Shown: one piece after another, positions 14,159 through 19,021 of the stretch
Layout: the number at the start of each line of letters is the position of its first letter
Position numbering within the stretch: the stretch's first letter is position 1
Assembly (NCBI GenBank): GCA_003963125.1
Contig: RXJK01000046.1
Span: 1 to 40,670 of the forward strand
DNA from: Hyphomicrobiales bacterium
Lineage (GTDB): Bacteria; Pseudomonadota; Alphaproteobacteria; Rhizobiales; Hyphomicrobiaceae
Direction: 5' to 3'
Length of the DNA stretch: 40,670 nucleotides
Notes under the pieces: generated by a model
Told to the model about the DNA's origin: nothing
Seen by the model: the letters and a program-made list of their open reading frames with translations, nothing else
Database searches by the model: none
Translations under genes and position numbers: made by a program

Positions 14159-14911
14159 GTGTCCAAGATCATGCTGATCACGGGAGGGAGCCGCGGCATC
14201 GGCGCGGCGACGGCACGGCTCTCCGCGGCGGAGGGCTATGACGTCGCCATAACCTACGTCAGCGCGGAAGCCGAAGCGCACGGCGTCGTCCGGGACATCG
14301 AAGCCAAGGGCCGCCGCGCGATCGCCATCCAAGGCGATGTCGCCAAGGCCGAGGACGTCGCGCGCATCTTCAAGTCCCTGGACCAGAAGCTCGGCACGCT
14401 GGATGCCTTCTTCAACAACGCCGGCATCTTCGGGCCCGCGGTCGCCTTTACGGAGATCGACGCCGACCGCATTCAGCGCATGCTGGCCGTGAACGTCTGT
14501 GGCGCCTTCCTCTCCGCGCAGGAGGCCGCGCGCCGTATGATGAAAAGCCGCGGCGGCAAGGGCGGCGCCATCGTCAACATGTCGTCGATCGCCTCCAAGC
14601 TCGGCGGCGCCACCGGCTACGCCGACTACGGTGCCTCGAAGGGCGCCATCGATGCCATGACGGTCGGCATGGCCAAGGAACTCGCGGGCGAAGGCATCCG
14701 GGTGAACGCCGTCCGTCCCGGCCTGATCGACACCGAGATCCATGCCCGCGTCGGCGATCCGGGCCGCATCGCCCGGCTGGCGAGCAGCATTCCTCTGCAG
14801 CGCGGCGGCAAGGCTGAGGAAGTGGCCGAAGCCGTGCTGTGGCTGTGCTCGGACAAGGCGTCCTACGTGACGGGGCAGCTTGTCGATGTCGCCGGCGGGC
14901 GCGGGCTGTGA
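14159..14911 (+). CDS. SDR family oxidoreductase
   Basis: 250 residues, a classical short-chain dehydrogenase. The NAD(P) motif 'TGGSRGIGAATA' (TGxxxGxG) is followed by 'NNAGIFGP', the catalytic Ser in 'VNMSSIASKLGG', and Tyr/Lys in 'YADYGASKGAIDAM'. The C-terminal 'VNAVRPGLIDTEIHARVGDPGR' and 'CSDKASYVTGQLVDVAGGRGL' are typical of glucose-dehydrogenase or FabG-like SDRs. The dinucleotide-binding Rossmann end 'ITYVSAEAEA' does not settle NADH versus NADPH. The GTG start follows 'GGGAGACGCCAGCC'. The substrate is unknown. The helicase gene begins 34 bases downstream. Confidence 0.92.
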   Translation: MSKIMLITGGSRGIGAATARLSAAEGYDVAITYVSAEAEAHGVVRDIEAKGRRAIAIQGDVAKAEDVARIFKSLDQKLGTLDAFFNNAGIFGPAVAFTEIDADRIQRMLAVNVCGAFLSAQEAARRMMKSRGGKGGAIVNMSSIASKLGGATGYADYGASKGAIDAMTVGMAKELAGEGIRVNAVRPGLIDTEIHARVGDPGRIARLASSIPLQRGGKAEEVAEAVLWLCSDKASYVTGQLVDVAGGRGL

Positions 14912-14945
14912 ACCGCTCCGTGTCAGCGACAGCGCGCGAGATGCG

Positions 14946-16286
14946 ATGAGCGAGAAGACGACCAGCGTCCCCGTGATCCAGCCGCGGCCCAAGGGCTGGC
15001 CCGCCGGCGTCGAGCCGACGCGCGAGCACATCGCCGCATACGACTACATGCGCGAGGGCGAGGGCCACCTCTTCGTCACGGGGCGCGCCGGCACGGGCAA
15101 GTCGACGCTTCTCACCTCCCTGCGCGATATGATGTCCGACGAGATCGTCGTGGTGGCGCCGACGGGCCTCGCGGCCGTCAACGTCGGCGGCCACACCATC
15201 CATTCCTTTTTCGGCTTCCCACCGCGCCTCATCCGGCCCGATGACATCCGTCGCAGCCGCAACGGCCGCGTCATGCGCAAACTGAAGTTCCTCATCATCG
15301 ACGAGGTGTCGATGGTGCGCTCCGACATCATGTGGGCCATCGACCAGTCGCTGCGCATCAACCGTGGCAAGCCGCGCGAACCGTTCGGCGGTGTGCGCCT
15401 CGCCATGTTCGGCGACTTGCACCAGCTCCCGCCCGTGATCGACGAGGGCGAAGTCGCCGAGCATCTCGAAAACGCGCACGGCGGGCCGTTCTTCTTCTCG
15501 ATTCCCTCGTTGAAGGAGGGTGCCGGCACCGCGCTGGTGGAACTGTCGCAAGTCTTCCGCCAGAAGGACGAGGCGCTGATCCGCGTGCTCAACCGCGTGC
15601 GCGAAGGCGACGTCGACGAGGAGGATCTCTCGGCCTTGAACGATCGCGTCCACCCCATCCGCACGCTGGCCGAAGGCGCAGACTACGTCATCCTTACGCC
15701 GACCAATGCCGCCGCCAAACGCATCAACGAGGCTTATCTCGCGCGGCTGGAGGGCAAGCTCTTCCAGTACAAGGCGACGACCACCGGGGATTACAACGCT
15801 TCGGCGCAGCCGACCGACGAGGCGCTCGCCCTCAAGGTCGGCGCAAAGGTGATGCTGCTGCGGAACGATCCCGACAAGCGCTGGGTTAACGGCACGGTCG
15901 CGAAGGTCTCGCGCCTCGAGGAGAAGCGCGTCTGGGTCGAAATCGACGGCGACGAGCACGAGATCGAGAAGGCCGCGTGGGAGAGCCGCCGCTACGCCTT
16001 CGACACCGAGCAGGGCAAGATCGTGGAGGCCGTGGTCGGCGAGTTCCACCAGTTCCCGCTGCGCCTCGCCTGGGCGCTTACGATCCATAAGAGTCAGGGC
16101 CTGACGCTCGACAAGGTGTATATCGACTTGGGCCGCGGCACCTTCGCCCACGGACAGGCCTACGTCGCCCTGTCGCGCTGCCGGTCCCTCGAGGGCTTGG
16201 CCCTAGCGCGTCCCCTAAAGCCGTCCGACATCCTCTTCGACCCCGCCGCCATGGGCTACCGCCGCGCGTTCGAACTGCTGGGCTGA
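14946..16286 (+). CDS. Pif1-like / RecD-like superfamily 1B DNA helicase
   Basis: 446 residues from the ATG at 14946; the longer ORF-track start lies inside the SDR gene. Walker A 'VTGRAGTGKSTLL' (about 45-57) is followed by 'VVAPTGLAAVNVGGHTIHSFF' (motif Ia, typical of Pif1), Walker B 'LIIDEVSMV', 'AMFGDLHQLPPV' (motif III) and 'VFRQKDEALIRVLNRVR'. After these come 'ILTPTNAAAKRIN', 'WALTIHKSQGLTLDKVYIDL' and 'AYVALSRCRSLEGL' (motifs V/VI). Known Pif1 enzymes unwind DNA 5' to 3' and resolve G-quadruplexes and R-loops. Bacterial short versions like this are little studied. It has no obvious partner in the operon. Confidence 0.9.
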   Translation: MSEKTTSVPVIQPRPKGWPAGVEPTREHIAAYDYMREGEGHLFVTGRAGTGKSTLLTSLRDMMSDEIVVVAPTGLAAVNVGGHTIHSFFGFPPRLIRPDDIRRSRNGRVMRKLKFLIIDEVSMVRSDIMWAIDQSLRINRGKPREPFGGVRLAMFGDLHQLPPVIDEGEVAEHLENAHGGPFFFSIPSLKEGAGTALVELSQVFRQKDEALIRVLNRVREGDVDEEDLSALNDRVHPIRTLAEGADYVILTPTNAAAKRINEAYLARLEGKLFQYKATTTGDYNASAQPTDEALALKVGAKVMLLRNDPDKRWVNGTVAKVSRLEEKRVWVEIDGDEHEIEKAAWESRRYAFDTEQGKIVEAVVGEFHQFPLRLAWALTIHKSQGLTLDKVYIDLGRGTFAHGQAYVALSRCRSLEGLALARPLKPSDILFDPAAMGYRRAFELLG

Positions 16287-16557: not shown

Positions 16558-17754
16558 CTACGCCGCCTCGTCGGCCTCGGGACCATTGCCCGCAGTCCCG
16601 ATGATCCGGTCGACCTCGAACGACAGATCGCTGCGCGCCTTTTCCACCGAGCGGATCAGCTTGTTGCGCTGGTCCCAGAGGCGGCGATGCGCCTCCTGCT
16701 CCTTCTGGTCGAGTTCCAGCATGCGCTTGGTCTGCGTTTCGACCTGATCGACGAGCTGCTTGAAGTGCTCCGAGGTGACGAAGCGATACAGCTCCTCGGA
16801 CTTCTGCCCGCGCTCTTCGCTGCTCGCCCTCAGGGCATGCATGCGCAGCACCTGCCCGCGCAGGATCTGCGCCAGCGCCACCACCCGTGACGGCGCCGCG
16901 ATGATCACGCCGTCCTGCGGATGGATCTGCTGCTTGTCCTTGGGGAATTTGTTGCTCGACAGGATGGCGTGGTCCGCGCCCTCCGCAATCTTGTCCGCGC
17001 GCAGCTTGTTCACGAACTCGTTCTGCCACGCATTGCGGTTCTTGCTGTCGTAGATGAGCTTGCCGCACTCCTGGCCGTTGTGCTGCACCACATGGATCAC
17101 GTCCGCGCCGTTGACGCCTTTGCCCACGCGCCAGATGCGGTCGCCCGGAAACGCCTCGCGCAGCGCCTCGAACAGATCGACCTCGGAGCCTTCGCCCAGT
17201 TCGTTGGACGTCTTGGCCTCGAGCTGGCGCTGCAGATCCTGCAGCTTCTGCTGCAGGCGCTGGGTCTCCTCGAACGCCTTCGATTTCTCGGCCAGAACCG
17301 CCGTGTCGCGCTCGCGCTGCAACGCCTCCCGCGCCTGCGCGATCTTCTCCGCGATCGCCGCCTCCTGCTCCGCTTTGAGCGTCGCCATCTGCTGCTGCAG
17401 GGCGCTGCGCGCGGCTTCGGCAGCTACGATCTTGTCCTGGAACTCGGCAAGCTTCGCCTGCTGCGCGGCTTCGGCCGCGGCCAGGATCTTCGCGCGCTCT
17501 TCGGCGAGCCGCCGCTGCGCGTCCACTTGCGCATGGCGCTGCGCCGCCTCGACGGCGGCCGTCGCCTCGGCGCGCATTTGCGCGGCCTTCTGCTCGTGCT
17601 CCGCCGTCAGCGCGGCAAGCCGCTCGTTCTGCTCCTCCGTCATGCGCTGACGGATTTCCTCGAATTTGTCGTGCGAAATCGGTTGCTCGCACCAGGGGCA
17701 GAATTCCCCCGCATTCGGATGGCTATGCACCACAGCCCCGTCGAGACCTGCCAT
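16558..17754 (-). CDS. DUF2130 coiled-coil protein with PD-(D/E)XK-like signature
   Basis: 398 residues from the ATG at 17754, preceded by the strong Shine-Dalgarno GAGGAGGGG; the ORF-track start at 17844 lies upstream of that and of the promoter. The N-terminus has a CxxC knuckle ('EFCPWCEQPI', Cys19/Cys22). Residues of about 30-185 form a long Ala/Glu/Gln-rich coiled coil. The C-terminal DUF2130 domain starts at 'NELGEGSEVDLFEALREAFP'. Within it 'GADVIHVV' (Asp218) and 'KLIYDSKNRNAW' (Asp236, Lys238) have the spacing of a PD-(D/E)XK nuclease core, and I recall the family having been placed in that superfamily. The biological role is undescribed as far as I know. The promoter carries a LexA-type box, so DNA-damage control is likely. 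Confidence 0.85.
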   Translation of the reverse strand: MAGLDGAVVHSHPNAGEFCPWCEQPISHDKFEEIRQRMTEEQNERLAALTAEHEQKAAQMRAEATAAVEAAQRHAQVDAQRRLAEERAKILAAAEAAQQAKLAEFQDKIVAAEAARSALQQQMATLKAEQEAAIAEKIAQAREALQRERDTAVLAEKSKAFEETQRLQQKLQDLQRQLEAKTSNELGEGSEVDLFEALREAFPGDRIWRVGKGVNGADVIHVVQHNGQECGKLIYDSKNRNAWQNEFVNKLRADKIAEGADHAILSSNKFPKDKQQIHPQDGVIIAAPSRVVALAQILRGQVLRMHALRASSEERGQKSEELYRFVTSEHFKQLVDQVETQTKRMLELDQKEQEAHRRLWDQRNKLIRSVEKARSDLSFEVDRIIGTAGNGPEADEAA

Positions 17755-17793
17755 TCGCCCCTCCTCGATCAACCCGATCACCCGCCGACCTAC

Positions 17794-17822
17794 ATAATGT
17801 TCTCTTTTTGTTCCAAGCGCAA
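17794..17822 (-). promoter_or_regulatory. Sigma70-type promoter of the DUF2130 gene
   Basis: On the minus strand, TTGCGC (-35), a 17-base spacer and CATTAT (-10) precede the DUF2130 start by 39 bases. The geometry is exact and the whole spacer is occupied by the LexA-type box. Identified by eye; no start-site data. Confidence 0.65.
17799..17813. promoter_or_regulatory. LexA-type SOS box GTTC-N7-GTTC
   Basis: The + strand reads GTTC-TCTTTTT-GTTC (minus strand GAAC-AAAAAGA-GAAC), which is the direct-repeat LexA operator known from alphaproteobacteria. It lies between and touches the -10 of the DUF2130 promoter, the position expected for repression by occlusion. The divergent flavoprotein gene at 17903 begins 89 bases away and could be co-regulated. 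Confidence 0.75.
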
Positions 17823-17836
17823 GACCAAACACGACA

Positions 17837-17860
17837 TGTTCCAACCCGCGCTCTGGAACA
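17837..17860. promoter_or_regulatory. Inverted repeat TGTTCCA-N10-TGGAACA, possible operator
   Basis: A perfect 7-base inverted repeat 42 bases upstream of the flavoprotein start at 17903 and 23 bases from the LexA-type box. It could be an operator for the flavoprotein gene or a fortuitous palindrome; I see no second copy in the window. Confidence 0.35.
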
Positions 17861-17902: not shown

Positions 17903-19021
17903 ATGGCCAACGCAGTGGATGTTGATATCGTCGTGGTCGGCGCGGGGGCTGTTGGGCTCGCTATCGGCCGCTCCCTGGCCGAGGCAGGGCACGAGGTGCT
18001 TGTCCTGGAGCAGCACGCGCTGATCGGCTCGGAGACGAGTTCGCGCAACAGCGAGGTCATCCACGCCGGCATCTACTACCCGACCGGCAGCCTGCGCGCG
18101 AAGCTGTGCGTCGCCGGCAAGCACATGCTCTACGACTTCTGCCGCGACCACGCCGTCCCGCATGCCCGCTGCACCAAGCTCCTCGTCGCAACGCACGACA
18201 GCCAACTCAAGAAGCTTGCCCAGCTCCAGGCCACCGCGAAGGCCAACGGCGTGGACGATCTCGAGCCCCTCGACGGCGCGGCGGCAAAGGCCCTCGAGCC
18301 GGAACTCTCCTGCGTGGCGGCCCTCCTGTCCCCGTCAACCGGCGTCATCGACAGCCACACCTACATGCTGACGCTGCAGGGCCTGATAGAGGCCGCCGGC
18401 GGATCGGTGGTCCTACGCTGCCCTGTCCTCGGCATCGACAGGCAGCCGGACGGAACGTTCCGCCTCACCACCGGCGGCGACGACGGCGGAAGCCTGACCT
18501 GCCGGCGCCTCGTACTGTCGGCTGGCCTGCACGCCTCGAAGCTCGCCGCAACACTCACAGCCTCCACCGGCTACACGCCGCCGCCGACCTACTACGCCAA
18601 GGGCCAGTACTACGCGCTGTCTGGCCGCTCGCCGTTCAGCCGGCATATTTATCCGATGCCGGACGGTGCCTGGCTCGGCCTGCACGCGACGGTCGACATC
18701 GGCGGCCGCTGCAAGTTCGGCCCGGACATCGCCTGGATCCCCGACATCGACTACACGTTCGAGCCCGAGAAGCTCACCGCCTTCCTCGATTTCATCCGCT
18801 CCTACTATCCGGGCCTCGATGTATCGCGCCTGCATCCCGACTACACGGGCATCCGCCCGAAGCTCTATCGCGAGGGGGAAGCGGTACCGGATTTCTTCAT
18901 CCACGGATCGGACGTGCACGGCATCGACGGTCTCGTGGCGCTGTACGGCATCGAAAGCCCCGGCCTCACGGCGTCGCTCGCCATCGGCGCGATGGTGGCG
19001 CAGATGCTGGCGCACGGCTAA
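17903..19021 (+). CDS. FAD-dependent oxidoreductase, L-2-hydroxyglutarate oxidase (LhgO)-like
   Basis: 372 residues starting at the ATG after AAGGAG. The FAD motif 'IVVVGAGAVGLAIGRSLAEA' is at the N-terminus, followed by 'SRNSEVIHAGIYYPTGSLRAKLC', which closely parallels the '[22 protein letters not shown]'-type segment of LhgO/L2HGDH. 'VDSHTY'-like substrate-domain sequence ('TGVIDSHTYM') and a C-terminal 'GLVALYGIESPGLTASLAIG' complete the DAO-family fold. LhgO oxidises L-2-hydroxyglutarate to 2-oxoglutarate, passing electrons to the quinone pool. The exact substrate here is inferred from this segment alone. A second flavoprotein follows after 45 bases, probably in the same operon. Confidence 0.85.
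   Translation: MANAVDVDIVVVGAGAVGLAIGRSLAEAGHEVLVLEQHALIGSETSSRNSEVIHAGIYYPTGSLRAKLCVAGKHMLYDFCRDHAVPHARCTKLLVATHDSQLKKLAQLQATAKANGVDDLEPLDGAAAKALEPELSCVAALLSPSTGVIDSHTYMLTLQGLIEAAGGSVVLRCPVLGIDRQPDGTFRLTTGGDDGGSLTCRRLVLSAGLHASKLAATLTASTGYTPPPTYYAKGQYYALSGRSPFSRHIYPMPDGAWLGLHATVDIGGRCKFGPDIAWIPDIDYTFEPEKLTAFLDFIRSYYPGLDVSRLHPDYTGIRPKLYREGEAVPDFFIHGSDVHGIDGLVALYGIESPGLTASLAIGAMVAQMLAHG

Follow-up and report, generated by a model that had tools for sequence, protein, structure and literature searches.

The DUF2130 (PF09903) gene analysed here lies in a 40,670-nucleotide stretch of DNA from a member of the Hyphomicrobiales (the whole stretch, hereafter the window), and is probably a LexA-repressed gene for a hook-and-rod nuclease, in which a cysteine motif, a long coiled coil, and a PD-(D/E)XK-type domain are predicted on a single chain (Table 1). 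DUF2130 is a family without an assigned function. In the open-access literature, no title or abstract on DUF2130, PF09903, or COG4487 dealt with an SOS or nuclease function, and a full-text search of the same literature found no link between DUF2130 and SOS; in the matched part of one paper, the family appears in a metagenome correlation table. An earlier fold assignment for DUF2130 may have been published, since the literature searched was open-access only. The combination of predicted LexA control in several lineages, an apparently intact PD-(D/E)XK site, and a hook-and-rod layout makes the function of this family testable and, if our reading is true, would extend the SOS response of a large bacterial order by one nuclease.

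Table 1 Features of the DUF2130 gene, its promoter, and its divergent neighbor (window coordinates).
Feature	Position	Strand	Basis
DUF2130 (PF09903) CDS, 398 aa, ATG start	16558..17754	-	ORF reading, Pfam
PD-(D/E)XK-type domain (predicted), residues ~190-300	16855..17187	-	AlphaFold model, structure search
D236-S-K238, putative (D/E)xK motif, end of strand 3	17041..17049	-	Alignment and AlphaFold model
D218, invariant putative "PD" Asp, start of strand 2	17101..17103	-	Alignment and AlphaFold model
E191, invariant Glu immediately ahead of helix A	17182..17184	-	Alignment
Long helix / coiled coil, residues 28-180	17215..17673	-	AlphaFold model
CPWC motif, residues 19-22	17689..17700	-	Alignment; only invariant Cys pair in the family
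ATG start codon of the DUF2130 gene	17752-17754	-	Sequence
Ribosome-binding site GAGGAGGGG of the DUF2130 gene	17758..17766	-	Sequence
-10 hexamer CATTAT, first base shared with the box	17794..17799	-	Sequence
LexA-type box GAACAAAAAGAGAAC, GAAC-N7-GAAC on the gene strand	17799..17813	-	Sequence and promoter comparison
-35 hexamer TTGCGC, 17-nt spacer to the -10	17817..17822	-	Sequence
Divergent FAD-dependent oxidoreductase, sharing the intergenic region with DUF2130	17903..19021	+	ORF reading

The original prediction described a TTGCGC-17-CATTAT promoter with GTTC-N7-GTTC in its spacer, and direct reading of the sequence agrees with both the coordinates and the description. The box at 17799-17813, given as GTTCTCTTTTTGTTC, sits inside the 17-nt spacer between the -35 and -10 elements of the DUF2130 promoter and reads GAAC-N7-GAAC, the reverse complement of GTTC-N7-GTTC, on the strand of the gene. 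Taken alone, a single box in this window does not exceed chance (GAAC-N7-GAAC is present twice in the window where 1.1 occurrences would be expected, a number equalled in 27 of 100 shuffles); it is the recurrence across relatives that decides. Other repeats were also noted in this region. An inverted repeat, TGTTCCA-N10-TGGAACA (window 17837-17860), lies upstream of the DUF2130 promoter, orthologues from the genus carry instead a GTTCC about 14 bases downstream of the box, and a similar extra GTTCC is present in some lexA promoters of the window genus. These additional elements near the box might correspond to a third LexA half-site.

To place the box in a broader context, DUF2130 genes were gathered from the order and family, and 250 bp upstream were scanned for each of 51 promoters. 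The expectation that orthologous Hyphomicrobiales promoters would carry GTTC-N7-GTTC was borne out in 26 of these 51 promoters, where the exact pattern was found within 250 bp of the gene, compared to 0.34 boxes on average and 3 at most in 300 dinucleotide-preserving shuffles of the same sequences. Nearly all of the boxes (25 of 26) were in gene orientation. Other spacer lengths (N3-N6 and N8-N12) yielded 0-1 matches each, and the backward pattern yielded 1. Across three separate clades, the half-sites were 95-100% identical vs. 33-44% for the 40 bases on either side. When mapped on the DUF2130 gene tree, the box label required at least seven changes and was fixed within clades (10/10 and 7/7), which suggests that the box state switched repeatedly and was then kept within clades. 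In the window genus, the exact box is present at five of the six DUF2130 genes, including that of the window, and the box of the remaining gene has a single mismatch; genus g10 includes several near-boxes 79-84 bases upstream of DUF2130. Promoter geometry also varied: in genus orthologues L061 (-35 of TTGTGC) and L063 (TTGCCT), the box fills a 17-base spacer as it does in the window, while 11 of 25 boxed promoters have an exact TTGAC at a distance of 23 or 25 nt on the upstream side of the box (0.7 by chance), meaning that in other clades the -10 falls on the box itself. These differing geometries suggest separate gains of the box.

The same box is found upstream of lexA in five genomes of the genus and in one other genome of the family (L039-L044; lexA genes found by PF01726 matches). 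In the window's own genome, the promoter of a gene that we take to be imuA from reading its ORF carries GAACAAAAAGCGAACA, identical to the DUF2130 box at 15 of 16 positions. Together with these promoters, the published Caulobacter motif, GTTC-N7-GTTC (PMC12700426; PMC9578287), matches the box, which is thus of the known alphaproteobacterial LexA operator type, as originally predicted. The regulatory part of our reading, i.e., repression of the DUF2130 gene by LexA, is well supported by computation, with LexA binding predicted from promoter comparison, and damage induction would be expected from the predicted box. Not every SOS gene carries the exact pattern, however, since eight of nine recA promoters (L198-L206, window genus included) lack an exact GAAC-N7-GAAC and only G451, from another family, has one; for this reason, lexA and imuA were used as positive controls. 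A separate set of three tandem GAAC half-sites (GAACTTTATGAGAACAATACGAGAAC) was observed in the window's own genome (G000:C64:30607-30633; L016/L017), about 73 bases upstream of an ORF presumably encoding a vitamin-B12-type ribonucleotide reductase. SOS control of the whole DUF2130 family was considered and rejected, as the box is limited to several Hyphomicrobiales lineages. No convincing CTGT-N8-ACAG or other SOS box was found upstream of the non-alphaproteobacterial DUF2130 members checked, nor any convincing SOS box upstream of most of the more distant alphaproteobacterial members scanned. Given this lack of local-type SOS boxes outside of Alphaproteobacteria, the core activity of DUF2130 probably did not evolve for SOS.

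The encoded protein contains the parts originally listed for it, namely a CxxC knuckle (CPWC, residues 19-22), a coil of about 150 residues (helix 28-180), and a DUF2130 domain (PF09903 at residues 157-374 in the Pfam scan, E 6e-32, 111.3 bits vs. a cut-off of 26.7), and the translation has GAD(218) and YD(236)SK(238) at the predicted positions. AlphaFold modeled the whole protein with a pLDDT of 82, and the domain alone with a pLDDT of 88 and a pTM of 0.82. In the full-length model, the long helix is followed by an alpha-beta-beta-beta-alpha-beta arrangement (H194-201, E206-209, E219-225, E228-236, H245-258, and E262-266), and the same core was obtained in the domain-only model. Within this core, D218 marks the beginning of strand 2 and D236-S-K238 is found where strand 3 ends, which corresponds to the PD-(D/E)XK layout. 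Top Foldseek matches were archaeal Hjc resolvases (prob 1.00, E 5e-4 and 1e-3), followed by HindIII (prob 0.99), and then by AF1548, BstEII, a RecU-type resolvase, McrC, and other superfamily members. Foldseek E-values were modest and TM-scores ranged from 0.4 to 0.5, so that the fold was assigned from the consistency of the matches as a set and from the placement of the motifs. Across 27 diverse aligned members, down to 14% identity, residues C19, P20, C22, G187, E191, F202, G216, D218, K238, D254, and R299 do not vary, and position 236 is always either Asp or Glu. The predicted fold therefore includes the restriction-endonuclease-like core proposed for the DUF2130 domain in the original prediction, with Hjc and HindIII among its top matches, and a PD-(D/E)XK fold is well supported by these models. 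Catalysis on DNA is likely; its substrate can be no more than guessed at from the Hjc-like core, and "DNA-end-processing factor", as first suggested, is one among several possible roles. A profile search against the PDB returned mostly coiled-coil matches, and the sequence similarities seen in Pfam and the PDB to a clostridial toxin translocation domain (E 0.13-0.17), lamin, and myosin were discarded as chance coiled-coil matches.

Among the aligned members, C19 and C22 are the only Cys or His residues shared by at least half, hence two chains would have to contribute to a zinc site, as they do in the Rad50 hook. The motif, along with weak coiled-coil matches, suggests that the N-terminal CPxC may form a zinc-hook-like dimer site. 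The Pfam match to Rad50_zn_hook reached just 10.4 bits, below the cut-off, and PHROG SbcC-like and defense SMC-like profiles aligned from residue 10-18 onward, with scores of a kind that coiled coils inflate. An SMC-like, SbcC-like, or Lamassu identity (PADLOC, NCBIfam, PHROG) was rejected on the grounds that these matches are driven by the coil, and they were kept as a hint of a hook.

Overall, we propose that LexA would occupy the GAAC-N7-GAAC box that lies between the -35 and -10 elements, thereby blocking the promoter until DNA damage leads to RecA filaments and LexA self-cleavage, upon which the DUF2130 protein would be made. Two protomers would be joined by their N-terminal CPxC pairs sharing one zinc, in a Rad50/SbcC-like manner, and would also be held together by the ~150 residues of coiled coil. 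The resulting dimer would present two PD-(D/E)XK domains (E191, D218, D236, and K238) able to cut DNA in a metal-dependent reaction, for which the most likely targets would be branched or abnormal structures at stalled or broken forks.

Parts of this scheme can be read differently. The domain could have the fold but no nuclease activity, and instead bind DNA as a structural bridge or recruiter: this would be consistent with the rod-and-hook architecture and with a fold that includes non-nucleases, e.g., the TBP-interacting protein 2czr found among the fold matches. Nevertheless, we consider an inactive domain unlikely given that even very distant members retain the four putative catalytic positions and show the D/E exchange that a (D/E)xK motif would predict. 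As for the promoter, the box is located between DUF2130 and a divergent oxidoreductase which we take to be L-2-hydroxyglutarate-oxidase-like (lhgO), so that the oxidoreductase could be co-regulated, and regulation of both genes from one box is possible. The box might even serve lhgO, with DUF2130 a bystander, as lhgO is the divergent neighbor of solo DUF2130 genes both in the window genus and in two boxed genomes of genus g21. This we find very improbable, however, since 20 boxed DUF2130 genes of the other subfamily have no lhgO nearby and the box holds its orientation and promoter spacing relative to DUF2130. On the other side of the gene, the convergent downstream neighbor (window 14880-16286), presumably a PIF1-like helicase, had no match in the other DUF2130 loci compared.

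The main rival to a repair function is a defense-like or self-destructive effector under SOS control. In 24 of the 33 loci of the window's subfamily, the gene directly after DUF2130 encodes a protein of about 315 aa with a ParB_N match (Pfam E 2e-10 to 3e-5; e.g., L078:7285-8232; loci L066-L069, L072-L087). Copies of this protein from Pseudomonadota, Actinomycetota, Myxococcota, and Acidobacteriota share 59-78% identity with that of L078. Boxes were found at 7 of 9 solo loci, one of them with a mismatch, vs. 2 of 24 partnered loci, one exact and one with a mismatch (Fisher p 2.6e-4 across the 33 loci, kinship ignored). The possibility of a box further upstream of the ParB-partnered operons was discarded, as none was found within 1 kb except for L082 and a GC-rich, probable chance match at L069. 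The partnered copies have varied neighbors, including a type I restriction enzyme, AbiD, E1-E2/JAB, and phage-defense candidates, DUF2130 is found on plasmids, many of them conjugative, and an RmuC-domain nuclease, ShdA, was co-opted for phage defense (PMC10270631). All of these observations would fit a mobile two-gene defense-like module (nuclease and ParB-like protein) that lost its partner and was taken over by LexA, with a nuclease that, instead of serving chromosome repair, would target incoming or replicating foreign DNA or bring about the death of a cell that is damaged or infected. Yet, coiled-coil matches aside, PADLOC has no model for the DUF2130 or the ParB-like protein, and it yielded no match over the nuclease domain, its weak matches falling in the coiled coil and C-terminal helices. 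In addition, each defense neighbor was met just one to three times, and in two genera the solo gene keeps the same chromosomal setting next to lhgO, unlike a mobile island. We consider a defense role possible but doubtful. The DUF2130-ParB pair is in itself a candidate horizontally moving two-gene system outside of PADLOC, and a midpoint-rooted tree suggests a direction from partnered to solo and boxed. A tentative scenario, which we offer with reserve, is that DUF2130 is a widespread hook-rod-nuclease family, that the window subfamily was once a mobile DUF2130-ParB pair, and that repeated LexA capture in Hyphomicrobiales, accompanied here by the loss of ParB, produced an SOS-triggered nuclease from a re-used defense-like module. 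One putative nuclease family is seen in both a ParB-partnered, presumably mobile form and a chromosomal form under predicted SOS control.

Read as a LexA-repressed hook-and-rod nuclease, the interpretation we favor, the DUF2130 protein can be set beside several known systems. In Rad50, two CxxC motifs from two chains hold one zinc (PMC9569753), and Rad50/SbcC and DUF2130 both have a CPxC beside a long coiled coil; in DUF2130, however, the putative hook is N-terminal instead of mid-coil, there is no ATPase head, and the predicted nuclease is on the same chain. RmuC (PF02646/COG1322; layout from PMC1189080) and the Shield nuclease ShdA are of similar size and likewise combine, in the same order, a long coiled coil, a PD-(D/E)XK domain, and a helical or coiled C-terminal part, although RmuC opens with a membrane helix where the DUF2130 protein opens with CPxC. 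Membership in RmuC was rejected, with no RmuC match in the Pfam scan and an hhalign probability of 4.5 outside the nuclease core, and an RmuC gene is also present at another place in the window's genome. Without a profile relation over the nuclease domain, the DUF2130 protein may work like RmuC but is not classed there. Archaeal Hjc (and RecU) are the best structural matches to the predicted nuclease core, but are small stand-alone enzymes without a coiled coil or CPxC, and share ~20% identity with DUF2130 over 100 residues.

On the regulatory side, ImuA-ImuB-DnaE2, lexA, and other alphaproteobacterial LexA-regulated genes have the same operator as DUF2130, but ImuA-ImuB-DnaE2 and lexA encode parts of mutagenic repair polymerases and the repressor, not a nuclease of this kind. 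BapE, as cited in PMC4211646, is an SOS-regulated, LexA-controlled DNA endonuclease of Caulobacter. The Caulobacter vibrioides control genome had no DUF2130 match, so BapE is not of the DUF2130 family; what the two would have in common is LexA control, predicted in the case of DUF2130, of an endonuclease in an alphaproteobacterium.
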